Of a stretch of DNA of 64,000 bases, positions 15,797 to 58,960 are shown piece by piece (the stretch's first letter is position 1; the number at the start of each line of letters is the position of its first letter). Below the pieces are notes generated by a model. The model was not told where the DNA came from. It ran no database searches and worked only from the letters and a program-made list of their open reading frames with translations. The DNA is from Thuidium tamariscinum. Taxonomy: Eukaryota; Streptophyta; Bryopsida; Hypnales; Thuidiaceae. The stretch is taken from assembly GCA_947034885.2 (NCBI GenBank), contig OX344753.2:3720001-3784000 (forward strand), in the 5' to 3' direction. A program made the position numbers and the translations under genes.

Positions 15797-16753
15797 GTTA
15801 TCCCCTAAAGCCCTAAACTGCATTTTTTTTTGCAACATAGCAATTTCGGGCAACTCACTACGAATGGAGTTATTATTTTTATTTTTTGAAATTTTCACAC
15901 AACATGTGTCCAAGGAGTAGCTTCAAGGCCCAACAATTTTCATAACTTTCAACCACACGGTTAAAAAGTTATGGCATGATATGTTGTTTTGTTTGAATTG
16001 CGGGCAGCCTGGGCAGCAAAAAAAAATTCTTTAAAAATTAATTTTTTTTAATAAAAAATTTAATTTGGTTTATTAGATTTTTATCTATGTAGAAAGCTTT
16101 GATTCATTCCATTTCGATATGTGAGTCGAAAGTTATGAGGAATTTTAGTTTGTGGTAGTTTGTGGGTAGTTATAGAATCTTTACTCTACAAAAAAGTTTG
16201 AAATTTTGTATTTAATTCAATTTTTAATATTTTTGAAAAAAAACTAAAAAAATTGGGTGAAGATTGTTTATTACAATATTTTAACCATTGGGATTGACAT
16301 TTTTAATTTTTATAAATAAATTGTTCACAATTTAGTATTTTCAAGCATTTTCTACTTCTTTCTACTAACTATTTTTTTCCTAGATGTTATACAATTCCAA
16401 ATGATTTGAAATTTTTTGAGCATATATCCAACTTGAATTGTAAAATGAATTCAAAGAGTAACCATCATTTTGAGTATTTTTTTAATACAAATGTTACCTT
16501 GTGAAGAGCAGCTGCCCGGATTTTTGCAGGGTTAAAAAAAGGATTTTTGGTAGTTCAAAGGTTAATATCTTGCAATCTACACGGTGGAAATTTCTGAAAT
16601 TTTTCCCACACCTTTTCAAAACACCCAACTACAAAATCCTACAGTTAAATATGTCAAAAAATGTTTTTTTTCAAAAAAATTGCACTTGTATTAGAAATCA
16701 CAATTTTGGAGTGATTTTGGTGGAAACATAGTCAAAAACCTTTAGGGGTTATT
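15797..16753. mobile_element. TTAT-flanked element of the TTAACCC group
   Basis: The left flank and end read TTATCCCCTAAAG, and the right end and flank read CTTTAGGGGTTAT. The direct 4-base flank TTAT on both sides indicates a 4-bp target duplication. The interior shares ggcagctcactacgaatgga and cgggcagcctgggcagc with other copies. Confidence 0.7.
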
Positions 16754-21024: not shown

Positions 21025-21976
21025 TTAACCCCTAAACCCCCGGACAGCGTTTTTTGAGATTATAGATTTTTTGGGCAGCTCACTACGGATGGAGTTTCTA
21101 TTTTATTCTTTGAAATTTTGATACAATGTGTGTCCGAGGAGTAGCTTGAAGGCCTAACAATTTTCATAACTTTTGACTTTGTGGATAAAAAGTTATGGCA
21201 TGATATGTCACTTTGTTTGCTCGGCGGGCAGCCCGGGCAGCTGAAAAAACTTTTTCAAAAAAACTTTTTTTTGAAAAGTGAAATTTCAAATTGATTCTTT
21301 AGGTTTATACAAACATGGAAAGCTTTGAATCAATCCATTCCGATCAATGAGTCAAAAGTTATGAAGATTTTGAGTTTGGGGTAGTTTGCGGCCAGTTACA
21401 GAATCTCCACAGTACAAAAAAAGTTTGAAATTCTTCATTTAATTCAATTTTTCATATTTTTGGAAAAAAATAAAAACAAAAGGTGTAGATTGTTTATTTC
21501 AACATTTTAACCATTGGGATTGAAAATTTTCAATTCCATGAATAAAATGTTCACAATTTAGTATTTTGGCTCATTTTTTACTTCTTTCTACTTACTTATT
21601 TTTTCCTATATGTTGTACAATTCCAAATGGTTTGAATTTTTTTGAGAATGTAGCCAACTTGCATTAAAGTATGAATTCAAAGAGTAACCACCATTTTGAA
21701 TTTTTTTTCACACAAATGTGACCTTGTGAAGTGCAGCTGCCCGGATTTTCGCAGGGATAAAAAAACAGTTTTTGTCAATTCAAATGCTTATATCTTGCAA
21801 TCTACATGGTGGAAATTTCTGAAATTTTTTGCACATGTTTACAAACCACCTTACTACAAGATCCTACGGTTACATGAGTCAAAAATGTGTTCTAAAAAAA
21901 ATTGCTCTTATATTAGAAATGGCAGTTTTGGAGCATTTTTTTTGGTGAAAACGCTGTCCGGGGGTTTAGGGGTTAA
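21025..21976. mobile_element. TTAA-flanked element with the longest intact ends (952 bp)
   Basis: The ends TTAACCCCTAAACCCCCGGA and TCCGGGGGTTTAGGGGTTAA are perfect inversions that extend to about 29 bp. This is the best reference copy of the group. It contains gggcagctcactacggatgg near the left end and gcagctgcccggattttcgc near the right. No transposase frame is present. Confidence 0.8.
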
Positions 21977-22065: not shown

Positions 22066-23229
22066 TTAACCTCTAAATGCCTAAATTACATTTTTTTTGG
22101 CAATATAACAATTTTGGATAGCTCACTATGAATGAAGTTTTGATTTCTTTTCTTTGAAATATTCACATGTGATTAAAGATTACTTGTAAGGTCCAACAAT
22201 TTTCATAATTTTTGATTATATGATTCAAAGGTTATTGTATAATACATTATTTTCATTCCTCAATGGGCAATCCAAGCAACTCAAAATTTTTCTTAAAAAA
22301 TCACTTTTTTGAAAAATAAAAATTTGAAATTATTTTTTCAAATTTATATATACATGGAAAGCTTTTAATCATTCTATATTGATTAATGAGATGATAATTA
22401 TGAGGAATATTAGTTTTCAGATAGTTATAGAGTTTTCTACTCTAAAATAAACTTTGAATATTTTAATTCAATTTATTTAATTCAATTTAGAATATTTTTG
22501 AAAGAAATAAAAACATTGGGTGTACGTTCTTTTTATTTAAACATTACAACCGTTGGGATTACCATTTTTCAATTTCATAACTAAATTCCTAACAATTTAG
22601 TATTTTAGAGTCATTTTTTACTTCTTTCTACTTTGTATTTTTTCCTATAATTATGTTGTACAATTCCAAAGGATCTGAATATTTTCAAGCATGTAACCAA
22701 ATTGCCTTTAAGATGGAATCTAATGAAGCACCAACAACATGAACATTTCTTTTGTACAAATGAGACCTTGTGCAATGCAACTACCCTATTTTGGGTAGGT
22801 CTAAAAAAAGATTTTGGTCAATTCAAATGCTAATATCTTGCAATCTACTCAGTAGAAATTTCTGAAATTTTTGTAACCTTTTCTCAAACCAACATACTAC
22901 AAGATCTTATACTTACATGTGTCCAAATTTGTTTTTTCTTCTAAAATTTGGTATTTGTACTAGAAATGGAATTTTGAAGCATTTTTGGTGAAAAAATAGC
23001 CAATACATTTAATGGTCAATTTCGTTAAAATGGCGGTATTTGAATAAAATGGCATGACATTCCATAAAAATGGCACATTTTCTTCCTCTACCTCAAGGCC
23101 TCTATGTCAAAATGGTACACAAAATATGTCAAAATGGCACTTGAAATTTATCAAAGTGGCACAGGGAATATGTCAAAATGGCACTTAGAATACCCCCATT
23201 TTAACGAAATTGACCATTTTAGGGGTTAA
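22066..23229. mobile_element. TTAA-flanked element, diverged, carrying a nested insertion
   Basis: The left end TTAACctctaaatg and the right end tttaggggTTAA bracket a diverged copy of the 952-bp element. A smaller element at 23011-23218 sits just inside the right end. Confidence 0.65.
23011..23218. mobile_element. 208-bp nested element with aatggtcaatttcgttaaaa ends
   Basis: The 23-bp ends are exact inversions (AATGGTCAATTTCGTT and AACGAAATTGACCATT). The interior is four to five imperfect units of atgtcaaaatggcac. Confidence 0.7.
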
Positions 23230-25253: not shown

Positions 25254-25839
25254 TTAAACCCTAAAGACTTTTTACTATGCTTTAATAAGTACCAAATAAT
25301 ATAAAAGAAAAACATTTTTGAAAGCATGTTTACTTTAGGATCTTGTGGTATGCTAGTCTGAAAAGATGTGGAAAAAATTTCAGAATTTTTTAGCATGTAG
25401 ATTGCAAGATATTAGTGTTTGAATTGACCAAAATAAATTTCTTAGGCCCTCTTAAAACCTATGTAGTTGCACTTTACAAGGCCACATTTGTAAGAAAAAA
25501 TGTCTAAAATGGTGGTGCCTCTTTGGATTTATTCTTCAAGGCAAGTTCGCTACATGCTTGAAAATTTTGAGATCCTTTGGAATTGTACAATATATAGGAA
25601 ATTAATAGTAAGTAGAAAGAAGTAGAGAATGATCCAAAACACTAAATTGTTAAGAATTTAGTTATAAAATTGAATAATGAAAATCCCAATGATTGTAGTG
25701 TTGAAATAAACAATCTATATTCTATGATTTTATTTTATTTCCAAAATATTGAAATTGAGTTAAATAAAGGACTTTAAATTTTATTTTAGAGTAGAAAATC
25801 CTACCACCCGAAAATATCATTTGGTCCTTTAAGGGCTAA
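25254..25839. mobile_element. Truncated member of the TTAACCC group
   Basis: The left end is TTAAaccctaaag and the right end ctttaaggg followed by CTAA. The interior is in opposite orientation to 21025-21976 and lacks about one third of it. Confidence 0.5.
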
Positions 25840-38367: not shown

Positions 38368-39318
38368 TTAACCCCTAAATGTATTTGACTATGTTTTGCC
38401 AAAAACACTCCAAAACTGCCACTTCTAGTACAACACCAAAATCTTTTTTAAAAACATCTTAAGACAAATGAAACCGTAGGATTTTATAGTAAACTAGTTT
38501 GAGAATATGTGGAAAAAATTTCAGAAATTTCCACCGTATAGATTGCAAGATAATAGTGTTTGAATTGTCAAAAATGCATTTTTTGTCCCTGCGAAAATCC
38601 GGGCAGCTGCACTTCAGTAGCTCACTTTTGTATGAAAAAAAGTCCAAAATGATTGTTACTCTTTCGATTCATTCTTTTAGTCAAGTTAGCTACATGCCTA
38701 AAAAATTTCAAATCATTTGGAGTTGTACAACATGTAGAAAACAATTAGTAAGTAGAAAGAGGTAGAAAATGAATCAAAATATTAAAATAGTAATAAATAA
38801 TTTTTGAAATTGAAAATTTCCAATCCCAATGGTTGTAATGTTGTAATAGACAATCTTCACCTAATGTGTTTTGTTTTTTTCAAAAATATTAAAAATTGAG
38901 TAAAATAATGGACTTCAAAGTTTATTTTGGAGTAGAGATTCCATAACTTCCCACAAACTACCTTCAAACTAAAACTCTCATAACTTTCATTTCACAAATC
39001 AAAATGGAATAATTAAAAGCTTTCCGATTAGATAAAAATCTAAAGAACGAATTTCAAATTTCAAATTTTAGAAAAAGTCATTTTTGAAGAAGTTTTTTCA
39101 GCTGCCCGGGCTGCCCGCCGAGCAAAAGAAATCACATATCATGCAATAACTTTTTATTCATGTTGTCAAAAGTTATGAAAATTGTTGGGCCTTAAAGCTA
39201 CTCCTTGGACACACATTGTGTGAAAATTTCAAAGAAAATAAAATAAAAACTCTATTTGTAGTGAGCTGCCAAAATTGCTATGTTGCCAAAAAACGCAGTT
39301 TGGGCGTTTAGGGGTTAA
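38368..39318. mobile_element. TTAA-flanked element (951 bp), reverse orientation
   Basis: The left end is TTAACCCCTAAATG and the right end cgtttaggggTTAA. The interior is the reverse complement of 21025-21976 (cgaaaatccgggcagctgca, cagctgcccgggctgcccgc). Confidence 0.78.
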
Positions 39319-46199: not shown

Positions 46200-47210
46200 A
46201 TTACCTAGTCCAATTTGATCGACTCAAGGAGTAGTAAGGTGTCCCTGCAATCTCATGAAATAAGCTTATACCAATGCATTGTTGGTCCCGGACGCTCTTT
46301 GTCGCTTCAGAGGACAGTAGAGTTGGCCAATGTCCGGCCGTCCGCTGTGCCAACATTTCGACTCTGCAGTGAGGCATCATAATCAATCCACAATTGCAAC
46401 GGCCACAAGCTAACCCAACTCGTGGAATTCAATTCAAGCAATTAACGTCGATTACGATGTGAAACCCACACTCCGTCCGGGTCCGAGAACTGGGTGCTCT
46501 TCACGAAGTCCAAATCGATGCATTCGGCCGGGTGGGGAAGCATGGCGCAGGGGCATCCTTCCAGAACGTTCCGTGCGGATACTCCATAACCAAGCTAGCT
46601 GACTTGCATTGGAACCCATGATGCGATAATATCGAGTCAGTGCAGTCGATCTTCGGAGAAAATCATTTTATTGAAGGAAGGTCGGCCAAACGTCTCAGCA
46701 GCTCAGGCAACAGAGTTGGTGCTCCGTATCTTGCAACACAGCAGCAACTTACGACTCACCTGCTGGAAGATGAACCAGAACTCGAAATGCTTGAATTCCA
46801 TTTGGTACGAAGATGAGAGCTCATATACGTACCTCTGTACTCAAGTGGCAATGCAAGCCTTCTGAATCATAGCATCCACGTTAGTTTCCGCTCTGAAGTC
46901 TTCATTGTCTATGTTCTTTCTTCAGCGAGGGACGAGAACGCAAATCTAGTAACTATTGGCAACTTGTTCTGTGTTTTTAAGAATTTGCAAGCAATTGATT
47001 TTGCATCTGCAGAAAAGAAAGCTTCCGCTCTGCATCCTGTTAGTCGGGATTCTGCCCTAGGTCTTACTCGAGCTCTTAGAGCCCCTCGCGTTCATATTCA
47101 GGCTCAGGAAGTTCAAGCCGCCACTAATCTGGGTCTCTGGGACCCAACCACTGTCGGTATGAAATCAAATCCTCCAAATTTCATACTGGCCTGCAAGTGC
47201 TAATTTCAAA
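46200..47210. other. Unassigned coding-like island, possibly a gene remnant
   Basis: G+C rises well above the flanks. On the plus strand, an open stretch from 46642 (after a GTGCAG) contains GRSAKRLSSSGNRVGAPYL and LLEDEPELEMLEFHL and ends at a possible donor near 46805. A second stretch after ATCTGCAG (about 47021-47158) reads EKKASALHPVSRDSALGL onward. The two do not join in phase. On the minus strand, about 46590-46450 reads RNVLEGCPCAMLPHPAECID and continues to a stop. I recognise no family on either strand. It could be a decayed gene, a long non-coding transcript, or the distal 3' region of the CFAP20 transcript. Confidence 0.25.
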
Positions 47211-48280: not shown

Positions 48281-49660
48281 TCAGCTCTTCTGCACAAGCA
48301 AAACCCAGTGCACATGACAATGCTTAGAGAAGGACACAAAAAGCGTGAAATTTTTCGTATATCAAAATTTCACCCATATCTTTCAATAACTGGATCAAAG
48401 TCTCATGAATCCTCAAATTCCTGCACTTACTTGGATAGGTAAGAAGATTTTAAATTCTGGGGGCAGCTCTTCTTCCGAGTACAGCCGATCAGCAAAGTAG
48501 ATACGTCGGACACGACAGTTGGCATGCACTTGCACCCGCAAAGTTTCCACATAATTGGTACCATAGGCCCTTCTTGTGAAGTCTGCGAGGTTAAGTTGAA
48601 TCTGGTTCCAACCCTCGTCCAGTCTCATGGGCATGGTGCAGATGTAGGGCTTCACTCGTGTAATTGACTGCAAGAATATAACCACTGGAAATGAACAAGT
48701 CTATTCGTGGTCTCAATATAAACTAGTTCAATGTCTTCAATCGCAGAATCATCAGGAACATTCTCAAGCAAGAAATAAACCAAAAAACACCTGGTTAATT
48801 TAGACAAGTAATTAGCACAGTAGGTAATCTGCATAAAGAAGTCAGATGTCATAGAACCCTAATAAGAGAAAAGATCCACAATCCATAATCCTTGATTTAC
48901 CTGGTAGTTTGATACGCGAAATCGGCGACGGACATTCTTGTCATCGAGAACCTGCACTTCAAACGTGAAGTACTTCTTCATGTTCTTGATAATCATCACA
49001 AATATAGGCAGCTTGATCCCAAGCGTCAACCGTGGATCAGCTGGGCAGGTTATATAGTTGCTACTCACATTTGTGCCCATTATCTCCAACACACTTGACT
49101 GGATGTCCTCGTCGGCACACCTTGTAACAAGTCCATTTTGAGCTGCACAAGTATCACATAATTATACATATCCTGAAGTAGATCGCAGACAATCCTCTCA
49201 CTAGTGCTCGCCAGTACTTCAGGCTATAAGCAGGCCACAACAATCTCAATTGGTCACCATGAAGAATCAGTTACATTTAAACTAAAAGAAAATAAGAAAA
49301 AAGGGAAAAGAAATCAACCTAATGACACAACCATCAAAATCTGGTAGGGCACTACAGAGTGAAATATAAGACAGTTACCTTCTGTGCCCCAGATCTGCAG
49401 TGGTTTACTCCTGATCAAAAACCCAGAATTAGTTAAGGGATTGTACAGACAAACATGCAACCATAAATCATTACCCAAAGACATGCAGGGATACAAACCC
49501 TATACACAATAGACATTAGTTCAAATGCAGCAGTTCAATAAATCCAGCGAGATTTTAGATTTCAGACTTACAATAGTGAAAAAACAAACAGGAATACTTA
49601 AACTCACCCAAGGCTGTAAAAAATCGAAAGAAACCCCGACTGAAATGTATTCTTGAACAT
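48281..49660 (-). CDS. CFAP20: CFAP20 / BUG22 family protein, complete, 5 exons, 190 aa
   Basis: Exons on the minus strand are 49660-49608, 49410-49379, 49142-48901, 48667-48431 and 48289-48281. They sum to 573 nt (190 residues plus TGA). All four introns are GT-AG (donors GTGAGT, GTAACT, GTAAAT, GTAAGT) and short (197, 236, 233 and 141 nt). The product starts [14 protein letters not shown] and carries the family hallmarks [57 protein letters not shown] and [13 protein letters not shown]. It ends PIQKS, so it spans the whole CFAP20 domain at the usual family length. Known role: a protein of ciliary and basal-body microtubule inner structure, conserved even in plants without cilia, where its function is less clear. 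The last exon encodes only Lys-Ser-stop; it was chosen because a strong GTAAGT donor follows the PIQ codons and the acceptor GTGCAG gives a short tail of the kind I recall for plant homologues. Reading through that donor would instead end in VSAGI. The ATG lies 7 nt after the stop of the small upstream frame, in the same exon. Confidence 0.96.
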
Positions 49661-49667
49661 AGTGTCC

Positions 49668-49712
49668 TCAGTAAAGTCGATCTTGCTCTTCAAACCGCTT
49701 TTGAAACAACAT
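49668..49712 (-). promoter_or_regulatory. Short frame directly before the CFAP20 start (C-terminal part of the 71-aa cistron, or a uORF)
   Basis: An ATG at 49712 opens 14 codons in the same frame as exon 2 of the small membrane protein. It stops at TGA 49670-49668, 7 nt before the CFAP20 ATG at 49660. In any CFAP20 transcript that begins upstream of 49712, ribosomes must pass or translate this frame, so it should limit CFAP20 translation or require reinitiation. Confidence 0.7.
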
Positions 49713-50864
49713 TTGATTGTATTCGGGTCTGGCAGTCTATTGAACACAAAAATTATGAAACAAATTATTACGACTCACAACGATCATCTCCAAATTATAA
49801 ATAATTGTATGAGGATTCTCTAAAATTACGTCTTTAAGTCCTTGATATTATAGACCGAGTCAAAACTACACAACTTCTGTGCTAGTTACACTCGACGAGG
49901 CTCAACTTCAAAAATTTGCAGTAAAAGTAGTGAATTGCCATGTAATAAGTTAACTAGTAACATAGGATTCTACAATAACGCTCAAGTGTGAGAATACAGT
50001 CTCAGTCCATATAAACTGCATGACGATCGAATAAGCGATCAAAGACAACAGAAAACGATGGGTGTAGGCATTAGCAATGTGGCAGAAATTGCTAAGCGCC
50101 AAGTCACTAAGCTGCAGTACGTACGAAAGAGCTCAATACATTAAACCTGTAGTACCTAAGCACTCGATACAGTGTTAGTGATAACTAAATACGACACCAA
50201 CTTTCACATCAGCTATATGTGCCCTGACGTTAAGAATCAATAACAATGAAACAACGATCCAACACATGTGACACAGCCAAGCAACCATACAATATAACAG
50301 CTCGGACAACGAATGCACGCTAAGCACACCAAAAGAATGTATCATCGAATCAACTATATGGAAGTAGTGCTAAGCACTAAGCAATTAAGCTGCAGTACCA
50401 AAAACAGTGCAATTAGTGTCGGAACTGTCAGTACCAACAGTTCTTTATAATATCAGGAACAAGTGATGACGACATAAAATCTCACATCAACTATATGAGG
50501 AGACGGTCCTGCCAAAGGCCGCCACTAATCACATCAAAAGTTATGAAAGACAATAGAACATTTGTATCAAGTACATGTGACACAGCCAGACAACGAAACT
50601 TGATACCCTAAAACCTTGTCGAAGCACAAGAGCACAATCTTAAGCCCACCACACCAGAGGACAGCCATCAATGAAAGCAAACGAGGCGAGAGAGGGCGAA
50701 AGTGCGTCGTTGTTTACCAAGTCCTTGAAGAGCAAATACGCGAGGAGAAAGAAGCAGATGAAGAGAATTTCAAACTCCGCCACGCGCACCAGCTTGAAGA
50801 CCGATCCGACCGCCCGGGTAAACAACGACGACGGTGTTTCCGCCACCGGCTGCCGTCTCCGCAT
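49668..50864 (-). CDS. 71-residue single-span membrane protein, two exons, upstream cistron of CFAP20
   Basis: Exon 1 is 50864-50718 (49 codons) and exon 2 is 49736-49668 (22 codons plus TGA). They are joined by a 981-nt phase-0 GT-AG intron (donor TTG/GTAAAC, acceptor TTCAATAG). The predicted protein has an Arg-rich start (MRRRQ), then a hydrophobic span at about residues 30-46 (FEILFICFFLLAYLLF). A conserved-looking junction FKDL-TARPEYNQ crosses the splice site, and the tail is charged, ending EEQDRLY. I do not know a named family with certainty, though the FKDL..RPEYNQ wording resembles small plant membrane proteins I recall. Start choice: the ATG at 50864 is the nearest to the conserved-looking part. 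In-frame ATGs at 50993 and 51071 would add 43 or 69 low-complexity residues. The 50864 ATG has a poor context (T at -3, C at +4). The stop is 7 nt before the CFAP20 ATG. If exon 2 were instead only leader sequence of CFAP20, the frame from the ATG at 49712 would be a 14-codon upstream ORF. Confidence 0.75.
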
Positions 50865-51350
50865 TGAACCTCGCCTTACGACCTCCGCCCGTCGTTCCCC
50901 TGCTGCTGCAACTGCTGTGTCCTTCGTTTCTCTCACATCCACCTCTTGTTTTTGCCGGGTTTCCAAGCTCCCTGACCTCTCCCTGACATTCATAGAACCA
51001 CAAACGGACAAAACGAGCAGCAGAGAGGATTGCCAAAGCAGACAAGCGCAACTGATCAATCGATACTTCAAGCTTCAAACCCTCGCACTTCCCTGAGCTT
51101 CAAACAAACACTCAAAAACAACAACCCTTGGGAGACACTCTAAGCACGATGGCCTAAAGCTTCGTCCAGCGGTCGAACACGCCCCGTCTTTCGGTCGCCG
51201 ACAATGTCTGCACTGAAGATTGTGGTGGGAATCCAACGGTCGGACGTAGTACGATCCGAATCTTGGCGCCGGGTTTCAGCCGTCCATTGGTCGCTCGCCC
51301 CGTTGATTGAAACCGTACTGGTACTTGAGGTAGTCAGTGAGGGCACTCTT
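50865..51350 (-). promoter_or_regulatory. G+C-rich promoter and leader region of the small-protein/CFAP20 locus
   Basis: This is a sharp rise in G+C and CpG against the A+T-rich surroundings, immediately upstream of the first cistron. In gene orientation it contains a CCAAT box (51290-51286) and a TTGGCGCC palindrome near 51264 that resembles an E2F site. No TATA box is evident. Long frames are open on both strands here, as expected from base composition. I do not call them genes. Confidence 0.5.
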
Positions 51351-53988
51351 TAGGCTTTGAAATTGAGCGGAAAAACATTTGAAGAAAAAAAGAAAATCGA
51401 AACTTATTTATATTATAATTTGAATTTGATAAGGGAGTCTCTCCCCTTGGTATTCTTATGTTATATGATTAAAAACATTCAAAATATCATATGTTCTCAA
51501 ATTAAAGCAGGATATTAATTCAAATATATTGTGTGGATTTTGAATTTTTGATTTATTTAAATTAATCAAAACAAAACTTATTATACAATTCAAAGCTTGA
51601 ATTGGTAATTGAATTAATATAAATCAAATACATTTCATAAAAATTTTGGCATGTAAATATTTTATTTTATTTTATTTTATTAGAGAAAATTGACTATTAT
51701 AAGGTCATTCGGAACCTTTATTTGATGATTTTAACTATTTTTTCTATTTACAAAAATACTTTTACAAATTACTGAATATAAAATGAATCAATATTAAAGT
51801 CTCCTTATATTGGAAGGTACCTATTATTAATGAAAAAACAAAACATTTTACACTTCAATCAACTTGTGTGTACAATTTGTATCAATCAATATATTAACAT
51901 CTACTCCGTATAATAATTTATGTAATAAAGTAAATATTTTTATTTTAAATCAAATAGCTATAAAATTCACTAAGATGTTTTTGATACCATTAGAAAGTGT
52001 AATTTGAAAATTCTACAGAATCTAAAATTATATAGAAGAATATGTCAAATCTTATAATATTTATATTCTAAAATATTATAAAGAATAAAAATAGATATTT
52101 AAAAATAGATTGTAATACAAAAATTGGATTTTATTGAATTCAAAAAATATATAAACCATTCTATGTATTCTTTGGGAAATTTTATTTTTATTTGTTTTTT
52201 CATTTATTTCATTGTCATCATACCATGAATCTCTTTAAAATTATACGTACCACAGGTTTGTTTATAGTCATGACTTGAAGTGTTTTTCAAAAGAGATGTG
52301 AACATTGAAGCTTTTACAAACAAATATAGCATATTCATTTGGTGCTTTGGGAATCATCTTTTCATTGAATGATTATTTTTCATGAAATTGTTTCATTCTT
52401 TTTAATCTATTGGCTTTTGAGTTATATCAAGATTTCAATTTTCTTCTTCCAACTAAAATATCGATACCTTAAGTCAAGACTTTTTGTTTGTTTGTTTTGT
52501 TTTATTTGTTACAATGACATCTTCTAAATCATATATCATCTAGTTATAATTCTAGTATTGTAGAAAAGCCATCAACGAGTAGGGATGCTCAAGCTTTGTT
52601 TCTATAGCATTTGGACCTATAGTATGAAGGTTATGGATTTTTGAGTTATTTTTTTATCTTAAATTATGCCAAATTATGTATCTTTCGGACCATGTGTCCC
52701 CTAGTTGTGTTCTTTGTACTATTAAAAAGTATTGCAAGGAGGAGTGCATGGGTTTGATTTTGTATTGTTTTGTATTTAGAGTGTACAAATTCTTGAATTA
52801 TAGAGTTTTTATGAATTAAAGTACATTCCCAAAGAAGTTCCTAGCAAGGAATCCACCAAAGATCCCCATTAGAAGAACATAAGTGTCTCAAGATGGGGTT
52901 CATGAAAATTACTTCCACTTTTTTGGTTGTAGCAATTGTACATGACACATTGGCAACATATAAAGTATTACTAAGTGGAATTTGATGTCTTTTTTGATGT
53001 CTCATTTAATGTAAAAGTTTCATTTGGAATAGTAAACACATACTATAGTTATGTTGAAAAAATTAATACTTAGAACTTCTCAAAATTAAATAATCTTAAA
53101 TTGCACATAAATGATTAAATTAAATTTATAGAATATAATATAAAAAATTGATGGTGAAATGTGCTTATTCTAGATTGTAAATTAAATTTCCAAATTGTAC
53201 ATTGAACTTTAAAATTGTACATTGAATTTGACAAATTAATATGCAAATTAAGTTAAAATGCCAAGAAACTTATTGTATACAAATTGTTACATAGCTACTT
53301 TTGCTAAAAGATCGTGATGTTTTTTTCAAATTCTTAAAGATGACACATAACTAATTTGAACAATCATTTATAATGCATCCATTTATTGAATAACATATTT
53401 TCTTCTTATAGTTATTATGGATTCTACACTATACAACTTACTTAAGTTCTATTTCAATAGAATATCATTTTTTTCAATTATACACTTTTTAAAGTCCAAT
53501 TATATTGACTTTTTGTAAAAAATTCCTCAATAAATAGATAAGCAATTTGTTATTGGATTATGATTTCAAAAATGAACTAGTTTCCTATGAAAAAAACTAA
53601 ATTGACACTAGTATACATGCATATATTGGATAAAAACATTCCTCTTTACATATGATTACACTTGTTTACAAAGGAAAAATGTTTTTACCTATTATATGTA
53701 TACTAGTGCTATTCATGTTGATAAGTCATCACAAATATCATTGATAAATATATTTATCCCTCATAAAAAGCTATGACCATGTGTACAATAAGTTGATTTT
53801 GTAATACAACATAGTAGGACAAATCAGTGTAGCAAGAGCTTTTATTGGCTTAGAGGTTAGATGAATGGAGGAATATTATGTTATGGGTTCTCATTAAAAT
53901 AATTTGAAAAATAACTTTGATTTGAATTACTCAACCTTTGTAAAGGATTAAGCTGATAGTAAGGATATGACTTTGGAGTTCTTACAGC
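51350..53988. other. A+T-rich intergenic DNA
   Basis: There is no frame of note. A TTTTA microsatellite lies at about 51660-51680. Confidence 0.45.
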
Positions 53989-55992: not shown

Positions 55993-58960
55993 CTAACTCT
56001 TTCCTCCATCCCCTCCATCCTCTTCATCTGAGTCACCCTTTTCTCGAAACCTGGGATTCTTTTCCTGCAACAAATTTCTGTTAGAATCGACCAAGTCCCT
56101 GAAAAATGTAGAGCAGAATGCTACGCATACTTAAATTCGCAATGAAACTGACCCATCATTTCAGCATAGAAGCGATTTAATAATCAAGACAAGACAACGA
56201 TAGCATTGCATATTGAAGCTCTTCGTGAATTTCCACCAACTTACAATTTTCTGCTCTTTATCTTGTCTCTTCACACCATCTGCAGGTGGAGCATCTTCAT
56301 CTCTATACCTCTTTCTTCCCTCTGCACCAACAAATCAACCATCAGTCCTTTCCAGGGAAATACTTCTCCGACTGACAAAATCTCTGGGATACTGTTCAGA
56401 GGCAAGGATAAAGAGGAAGAACACCAAATGCAGAATAAGACAACAGGTCATACAGGAGCAACTAAATTATACAATGGATTCAGAAAATAGTAAGCACGGC
56501 GTTCACAGGAGGTGCATGACAACTCACCTCTGTTTCGGTTACCTCCATGACCATGGCGATCTCTTCCACCTGCCAATTTTCCAGAAATTTTAAGTCCATA
56601 ACATTTAGTTATTCGCCTTCAAATGTTGGTTCTCAATCTAATCGATTTCAATTCAAGATGAACAACCGAAAGTCCTGACTCACGTTCTGCCCAAATATCA
56701 AATTGGTCAGCGTATGTTAACAAATGCAAGTGTATATAACTCCCCTCTCTGAAAATTACTACGGAGTAATATCCTATTGTGCAATTTGTAAGGGTCCTTA
56801 CGCCTAAACTCATTTCCTCCACCACCACCACCTCCATCTCCCAAGCCAGGATATTGAACTCCTCCCATGCCAACGGGCTGTTCATATTCCACCAGCTGCC
56901 GACGTACTTCTAATTCCTTCTGTACCAACTTTCCATAGCCTCCTCTCCGTGCAATCATTTCAAATTAAGGGAAAAAAACTCAATTGTAAGCATAGAGCAG
57001 AGATTTTCAGTCTTGCACGCATGCACTGACCGACAAATCCACGAAGACAGCTTTGCAAGAAACAGCAGAATGTAAAATGGCATAGCAGGAGAGGATATCT
57101 GGATCATAATCTGTTCGGTACTCATCACGCACCTGCCATTATAAACAAATCATCACCATCCATGTGAAGAAATGTCAGACACGAGACAGAAAACGAATCG
57201 TGAATACGGTGGAAAAGCACTTTCAAAGTAAGGAATATAACCTGGCCCCCGCTCCTTCCGCGACCCCATTGCCGACCCTCTTGGAAACCCCAATCGAAGT
57301 CCACACGAATAGGGCGATCGTCCAAAATGGTCCCACTAATATATTTGACAGCATCCTCAGTATCCTCCCTTGTGTAGAATCTAACCAGGAAACCTAAATT
57401 AGAAAAAGCACGAATATTTTTCCGTACTTCCTTACAAAATCACAATCTGCTACACGGATATGAGCTTGCAGGACATCTACTTCTGAAGATAGTTGAATCG
57501 GGAGTAAACTTTCAGAAATTTGCTAACCCCATGTTGATAGAGCCCTTGGGAGCACACTCCTGCGTCATCTACTCCAAACCACATTCACATAACCCTTGGT
57601 AGAAAGATGCACAAAGACTTCGCTGTCTAAAACTCTAAGCTCCGATGCTCTCTTTGCACATAAACCTACTTGATTGAGGACTCCAAAGCACATAGAATTA
57701 CAAAAGTATAGAATTCTCAAGCATGAGATGGTCGAGCTAAGGTTACAGAGACATACAGGACAAAGCAGAATCCGCAAGGCGTTTTAGTGTTCTTGTCGAG
57801 ACCCATAGTGATCTTCTTCAGCTCCCCAGTACGAGAAAAGACCTCATAAATCTGTTCCTCTGTGGTATAGAACGAAAGATTTCCGACATACACAGTGGTC
57901 GAGGTGCGAAGAGCATGTTCAAATTCATCTTGCGATCCCAGAAACCTACGATCCCTGTACGCTGACAGCTGATCCGGATTCTGCAATCAACCAGTAAACC
58001 ATTGAGAGATTCAAAATGCAATACGTTGATTTCCCCAAAAATTCAACACAGCATTTCGCTCGTCCCAGGCGTACAAAGATAGTGAGTGTTCAATAATCTA
58101 AAAGAACGCCCAGGTAGCAAAGATTAAGGTAATCCCTTGCACATTTCCAATAAATAAGAAATGAAGGCAACTATCACAGGAACAGCTCCAGGATGCGACA
58201 GAGACAAAGCCAGGATAACCAGAAACAGAATCATCCGTGTTATTTCAGCATAAATTACGTTTTCAATTGCCTTAGATTGTGTCCTCTACCATTCTGTTTT
58301 TAAATATTCCGTCCATGAGCTGTAATTAAACTTGCAAAGATTGTAAAACTTTTATTAATAAAACGTTCAAATAATTACTGAATTAGAAATCCGGGAACGG
58401 AATAAAAACAGTTTTATTCCGATTTCTACTAACCTGGTTACAAGCATCATGCACAATCCGAGTGACAAGTAATGCGCATTCAGTTTCCTTCCATGGCGTT
58501 ATCCACGTGAGTAGATATCGCTGTATAATGAACCTCATCTCCCGTTGTTTACATACTAGTATTAACCTACTGATGCCCTAACCAATGCCATCAGAAAAAG
58601 AAACGTCGGAAAGTGGAGCTAGCTCTACCGCATTATTCCATGCTCGTCAGTGCTTCAAAACTACCGTTCGCAACTAATCCTCCACCAACTGCCAGATTTC
58701 AAACAAACGAAGGAGAGCAGACGACGCAATACTAAACCCATTAACAACCAATCCGCTTTCTAACGGCCAAAGCGCACAAGTTGCACATTCACTATCCAGC
58801 ATACCGAACATGAAAAAATTATGATCCTTCCACAACAGATTCAGAATTATCAGATGAGTTCCAATCAATTAGCGCCGAACCTAGAATAGGCCTAACGAAA
58901 ATTCGACAGCAGGGTTTAACCACACACAGGTTCGATTGTCACCTTGAAAAGACGAGCCAT
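55993..58960 (-). CDS. NCBP2: Nuclear cap-binding protein subunit 2 (CBP20), complete, 8 exons, 250 aa
   Basis: Exons are 58960-58943, 57980-57757, 57380-57242, 57132-57099, 56948-56802, 56569-56528, 56321-56245 and 56064-55993, totalling 753 nt (250 residues plus TAG). The protein starts [19 protein letters not shown]. An RRM occupies about residues 35-110, with RNP2 VYVGNL (36-41) and RNP1 GFCFVLFY (76-83). Tyr14 and Tyr37 correspond to the two tyrosines that stack on the m7G cap in human CBP20. The conserved [20 protein letters not shown] and RTDYDPGRGGYGKL segments follow. Then come a Gly-rich stretch, an Arg/Gly/His segment ([15 protein letters not shown], from residue 188) and an acidic tail GDSDEEDGG, as in plant CBP20. 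Known role: with CBP80 it binds capped RNA in the nucleus and acts in splicing, microRNA processing and export. The fourth intron is U12-type AT-AC; the others are GT-AG. The exon 3 acceptor was set at TTCCTGGTTAG, because the earlier TTTAG would bring in a stop. The length is close to the usual plant size. Confidence 0.97.
56949..57098 (-). other. U12-type AT-AC intron (intron 4 of NCBP2)
   Basis: The intron begins ATATCCTC (consensus ATATCCTT, 7 of 8) and ends TTGCAC. A CCCTTAAT branch site (consensus TCCTTAAC, 6 of 8) lies with its adenosine 16 nt before the intron end, in the range needed by the minor spliceosome. No GT-AG alternative preserves the DYDP-GRGGYGK reading frame. As I recall, Arabidopsis CBP20 carries a U12 intron, which makes positional conservation plausible. 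Confidence 0.93.

Follow-up and report, generated by a model that had tools for sequence, protein, structure and literature searches.

The stretch of DNA under study, a window of 64,000 nt (C5:3720001-3784000) belonging to an assembly of 363 Mb in 19 contigs, carries on its minus strand two colinear open reading frames separated by 7 nt (49661..49667) inside one exon—the geometry of a bicistron. The downstream frame is CFAP20 (BUG22), which encodes 190 amino acids in five exons (48281..49660; exons at 49660-49608, 49410-49379, 49142-48901, 48667-48431 and 48289-48281) and starts in the context GACACTATGT, with A at position -3. The upstream frame comprises a first exon of 49 codons (50718..50864), which starts in the weak context GGTTCAATGC and includes the transmembrane segment VAEFEILFICFFLLAYLLF; a predicted intron of 981 nt (49737..50717) with a weak GTAAAC donor and an AATAG acceptor; and a second exon of 22 codons plus TGA (49668..49736; TARPEYNQMLFQKRFEEQDRLY). 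Read directly, exon 1 ends in AAG GAC TTG/GTAAAC at 50718 and the acceptor is TTCAATAG/ACTGCC at 49736, so that the predicted spliced frame amounts to 71 codons, with its TGA at 49670-49668 and the CFAP20 ATG at 49660. Upstream of both frames lies a G+C-rich and CpG-rich 5' region (50865..51412) that would hold the promoter and the leader. The sequence-only reading had placed the TGA of the second small-frame exon (49736-49668) 7 nt before the CFAP20 ATG within one exon; these coordinates are right and the geometry is real. Elsewhere in the assembly, SAM_LFY domains were matched six times (best E 1.6e-27), vs none in 14 prokaryote controls; as LEAFY is not known outside streptophytes, this indicates a streptophyte host, and genome size, base composition and the possession of CFAP20 suggest a land plant, perhaps a moss.

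The two frames stand in different phases and do not, therefore, make up one protein. We considered a fusion of the small protein with CFAP20 through the alternative acceptors at 49687, 49681 and 49666, each of which would link the frames with no intervening stop; the first two have no pyrimidine tract and the third has a moderate one as judged by eye, and a fusion via 49666 was ranked low because CFAP20 keeps its conserved start. An antisense frame (50644-51093) was likewise discarded, as it lacks a Pfam match and its codon score is below zero in each of the four pieces examined.

The identity of the downstream gene is clear. CFAP20 aligned with the Pfam family PF05018 (CFA20_dom) at E 1.4e-89 over domain positions 1-184 of 185, and with eight distinct CFAP20 sequences in the PDB (best E 3.5e-107) in alignments that begin at residue 1, which places it in the CFAP20 (BUG22) family with a conserved N-terminus. 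CFAP20 is a cilium protein kept also by non-ciliated plants (PMC3268115), and the same source describes a BUG22 duplication at the base of land plants and four copies in Physcomitrella (Hodges 2011, PMC3268115). A second, diverged CFAP20-like gene was found on C3 (within C3:16424501-16434500; minus strand, exons near 6293-6243, 4636-4412 and 4164-3940 of that 10-kb stretch), with 53-65% identity by exon and very A+T-rich surroundings. Neither tblastn over these 10 kb nor reading of the DNA upstream of the gene revealed the small frame before it, the best tblastn match of the small protein (E 0.046) lying elsewhere.

Several properties indicate that the small frame probably encodes a real protein, as judged from its sequence. 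Its length is unremarkable: among 2000 dinucleotide-shuffled leaders, 682 held an ATG frame no shorter than 71 codons, 105 matched the observed 114-codon frame that opens at the AUG at 50993 and 160 matched the observed stop-to-stop frame of 141 codons. Its codon usage, by contrast with the shuffles, is distinctive. With a score trained exclusively on 30 protein-kinase stretches of the same genome (8027 codons), the small frame reached 0.113 per codon vs -0.21 for the shuffles (SD 0.106), none of which attained this value (0/2000); nor did any of 68 further non-gene frames of 71 codons without a stop taken from the window (mean -0.198, maximum 0.045). Among 95 known coding pieces, which average 0.028, this score ranks at the 79th percentile, and CFAP20 itself scored 0.026. 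Both frames thus appear coding against these controls, as in nuclear bicistrons, in a statistical sense that is distinct from protein evidence. Exon 2 taken by itself does not mark out its own frame, as this stretch scores 0.062 when read in the CFAP20 phase. The 25-codon extension that would follow exon 1 if the intron were kept scored -0.143 vs 0.018 for exon 2, which mildly favors splicing. The G+C content by codon position in exon 1 (0.53/0.37/0.80) shows a strong periodicity. Immediately before 50864 this open frame shows none (0.56/0.50/0.51), which makes 50864 a likelier start than 50993. Finally, the best 19-residue hydropathy of the small protein was 2.32, a value reached by none of 1000 shuffles, and one strong transmembrane segment is predicted.

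Searches for relatives of the small protein returned nothing convincing. The Pfam search found none, the SPT6 HTH_44 family having been rejected at E 0.088 and 13.7 bits against a cut-off of 35; the PDB search gave no match at E 10, and the viral contigs scanned gave none either. The prokaryote contigs scanned held no true relative: one match of 22 residues had an E of 4e-6, a value relative to the candidates only, and was set aside as a chance similarity to a bacterial frame. That frame, presumably TruA, adjoins a thioredoxin-like one. The string RPEYNQ occurred zero times in the open-licence PMC paper texts. Plants may have short proteins in which a comparable motif follows a membrane-spanning stretch, but nothing here rests on them.

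Within the assembly, exon 1 was matched at C10:4805333 (62% of residues) and C1:14218215 (53%), in the loci C10:4803833-4806967 and C1:14216715-14219849, with two and four in-frame stops, respectively. These copies share only 50550-50859 of the small-gene locus (part of exon 1 and 168 nt of the intron) and sit in a repeat of about 1.1-1.5 kb common to C10 and C1, which are 89% identical over 1134 columns and 95% over 360. Of their mismatches to the window, 50/74 (C10) and 52/75 (C1) are G-to-A or C-to-T changes vs six in the reverse direction in each; none of the 23 CpGs on the window side survives in either copy, and decay has affected all three codon positions equally. We therefore rejected them as paralogues: the in-frame stops, the repeat setting and the CpG decay make them look most like degraded pieces of the locus that a mobile repeat has picked up, and they say nothing on the selection of the small frame. 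The converse possibility, that a mobile element brought the small frame to the locus, is disfavored because the repeat flanks were not found beside it; two short flank pieces (71 nt and 49 nt) have their matches at other places in the window.

The start contexts differ between the two frames. In a spliced leader beginning at 51400, seven AUGs precede CFAP20, with C, C, T, T, T, T and C at -3; five of them lie before the first frame, all with a pyrimidine at this position, and among all eight AUGs a purine stands there only in that of CFAP20. The bases at -3/+4 are T/C for the first frame and A/T for CFAP20—a weak first and a stronger second start, as judged from these two positions. Shuffled leaders rarely lacked every purine-at--3 AUG (55/4000 from 51384, 62/4000 from 51300); for a short leader from 50900 the same property occurred in 1211/4000 shuffles and was not significant. 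We found no depletion of AUGs, either between the two starts (one vs a mean of 1.86, with 815/2000 shuffles as low) or in the leader (six vs 7.0, with 808/2000 as low).

The suggestion that weak contexts of the first-cistron AUGs favor leaky scanning is therefore upheld by the contexts of all seven upstream AUGs and of CFAP20. The sequence-only reading had offered leaky scanning or reinitiation as routes to the second frame; the start contexts fit the former, and reinitiation appears less likely because the first frame has 71 codons, the gap is 7 nt and the second frames of most Arabidopsis readthrough mRNAs examined are rarely translated. The small-frame stop is followed by four exon junctions, the first of them 60 nt away, and a stop placed in this way generally makes for a decay-prone mRNA unless ribosomes also translate CFAP20. 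In the Arabidopsis work, as far as the part available to us goes, second frames were rarely translated in 7/8 readthrough mRNAs expressed in Nicotiana leaves (Kurihara 2022, PMC9768141), and the first stop of such dicistronic mRNAs was associated with decay (PMC9768141). For algal bicistrons, mutation tests support leaky scanning with a weak first and a better second start (PMC11892635).

The transcript structure was approached through base composition and splice signals. G+C content is 0.48-0.59 over 50,800-51,399, at and upstream of the first frame, with a TATA-like TATAAATA just above this region (51412-51405), and a further stretch above 0.5 lies at about 46,300-46,700, beyond the end of CFAP20. 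The earlier view that promoter-like G+C-rich DNA occurs only upstream of the first cistron holds within the locus, but CpG-rich DNA continues through the intron, with an observed/expected ratio of 0.66-1.12 down to 49,600, so that composition does not exclude a promoter there. As the 7-nt gap provides no room for a 3' end between the frames, any small-frame mRNA would continue into CFAP20. The donor after 50718 fits 5/9 consensus positions—a crude measure of strength—and is the weakest of the five at the locus, the four CFAP20 donors having 7-8. Donors of 6/9 occur four times in the leader (50988, 50977, 50943 and 50937) and nine times in the intron, and none of at least 7/9 was found in either; from these sequences, the 6/9 donors could give a CFAP20 leader without the small frame.

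Taken together, these observations lead us to favor, with a probability of about 0.52 that is limited by the weak donor, a main mRNA of this streptophyte (probably land plant) nuclear gene that would be dicistronic, spliced and leaky-scanned. Transcription would start in the G+C-rich DNA above 50,864, and removal of the 981-nt intron would leave one mature mRNA encoding a 71-residue single-pass membrane protein, then 7 nt, then CFAP20. Some scanning ribosomes would start at the weak first-frame AUG, and those passing both this AUG and the single weak in-frame AUG at 49712 would start at that of CFAP20. Retention of the weakly defined intron would add AUGs that silence CFAP20, and termination at the first stop would make the mRNA a target of nonsense-mediated decay; splicing and leakiness together may thus set the ratio of both proteins. 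Against this reading stand the weak donor, the 6/9 donors that could bypass the small frame, the lack of significant AUG depletion, the absence of the small frame from the DNA examined before the C3 gene and the failure to find a homologue of the small protein in the collections searched.

The alternative that survives best, although we regard it as rather unlikely, keeps one promoter and has two spliced mRNAs, one of them joining a leader donor (50988, 50977, 50943 or 50937) to 49736. This form would skip the small frame and supply most CFAP20, and the longer form, mostly non-productive, would supply the small protein. All four leader donors exceed the donor after 50718 in consensus positions (6/9 vs 5/9), and the Arabidopsis precedent of dicistronic readthrough mRNAs that undergo decay and whose second frames are poorly translated (PMC9768141) points in the same direction; however, a nine-position count discriminates crudely, the donors at 50988 and 50977 have C at +3, and the coding signature of exon 1 argues that the small frame is itself kept.

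A still less probable arrangement is that of two overlapping genes, with a CFAP20 transcription start inside the 981-nt intron and a small-protein mRNA polyadenylated in a CFAP20 intron. The CpG-rich DNA through the intron and a TATA-like TATAAAGA at 50449 are compatible with such a start, and any of the nine 6/9 intron donors could define a first exon. Unspliced intronic leaders, however, would be crowded with AUGs: 12 from 50420 and 18 from 50700 (the exon 2 AUG at 49712 included), two of them in each case with a purine at -3. Moreover, a search of 49660-49143 for five polyadenylation-like hexamers found no instance, a result that weighs little because plant polyadenylation signals are loose.

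Upstream open reading frames are common in plants, and the small frame, with its position, its weak start and a stop 7 nt before the main frame, could be taken for a peptide uORF that tunes CFAP20 translation by stalling or decay and has no job of its own. We consider this improbable, given that a frame of 71 codons with a complete transmembrane segment and ordinary codon usage looks like a protein and that a uORF peptide would not need such codon bias. Plant conserved-peptide uORFs (PMC2075485) resemble the small frame in lying in the leader of a main frame and differ from it in the transmembrane segment and the coding signature found here. An accidental origin, with the small frame open merely by chance in a G+C-rich leader, is very improbable: the ease with which shuffled leaders reach its length and the failure to find a homologue in the Pfam, PDB, prokaryote and viral collections speak for it, but its codon score and hydropathy exceed all controls and the coding signature switches on at the ATG.

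The favored reading, a dicistronic and leaky-scanned mRNA, has its closest counterparts in green algae. The exclusively bicistronic loci described in Chlamydomonas and Auxenochlorella (Duenas 2025, PMC11892635) resemble the present locus in that a short first frame with a weak start is separated by a short gap from a second frame with a better one. They differ in several respects: the host here is a streptophyte with LEAFY-type domains and the case is a prediction from sequence; its first frame is interrupted by a predicted intron; its leader would probably be long, about 500 nt from the TATA-like box and with further AUGs, vs algal medians of 83 and 54 nt (PMC11892635); and its AUG depletion is not significant. 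The main text of the algal study, as far as available, does not name CFAP20/FAP20 (PMC11892635).

Among land plants, the CDC26-TTM3 bicistron (Lorenzo-Orts 2019, seen via citing papers) likewise places two different proteins on one nuclear mRNA; unlike there, neither frame here matches CDC26 or the CYTH family in Pfam. The single TTM3-like gene that we found in the genome (C9:180169-181523, within C9:178001-188000) has a CYTH domain and starts MEVEVKIRL, and none of nine frames scanned around it encodes CDC26, two being CYTH itself and seven having no Pfam match. The CDC26-TTM3 bicistron may thus be absent or split in this genome, and it was unusable as a positive control. Arabidopsis readthrough transcripts (Kurihara 2022, PMC9768141) also have a pair of frames that splicing has brought together on a single nuclear mRNA; in the portion of that study available to us, they are reported to stem from two separate genes and failed termination, whereas the 7 nt between the present frames would leave no space for termination.

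No recognizable report of a CFAP20 bicistron was found in the open-licence PMC literature, and the locus would add to the known nuclear bicistrons, its arrangement appearing unusual for nuclear genes. Few nuclear bicistrons of plants seem to yield two functional proteins, and the case cited in the sources available to us is CDC26-TTM3. If the favored reading is true, this second plant case, with frames only 7 nt apart, would suggest that land plants share the leaky-scanning bicistrons that are established in green algae, and CFAP20 would gain a testable partner protein. A bolder proposal, which we hold only tentatively and judge distinctly less probable than the favored reading, is that of an obligate, conserved plant bicistron in which an unrecognized single-pass membrane protein and CFAP20 share a function and are made in a fixed ratio, with the intron as a switch—both proteins when spliced, the membrane protein only when retained. 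A conserved pair would raise the importance of the small-frame/CFAP20 bicistron.

Some further features of the genome and of the window emerged along the way. Among the best 30 protein-kinase matches, 20 are closely similar CDPK-like stretches (50 residues compared) that are dispersed over chromosomes (L020, L022, L024-L034, L036, L037 and L039-L043), three of them with an internal stop; a CDPK-like kinase gene has probably, we infer, been spread by retrocopying or a mobile element. The window itself holds five copies of a dispersed repeat (16080-16732, 21314-21940, 22342-22999, 25336-25801 and 38399-39024), in both orientations and 71-76% identical to part of the C1 locus that bears an exon 1 copy. 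Lastly, a minus-strand frame at 57128-57439 of the window, which has no Pfam match, presumably resembles the end of the cap-binding protein CBP20.
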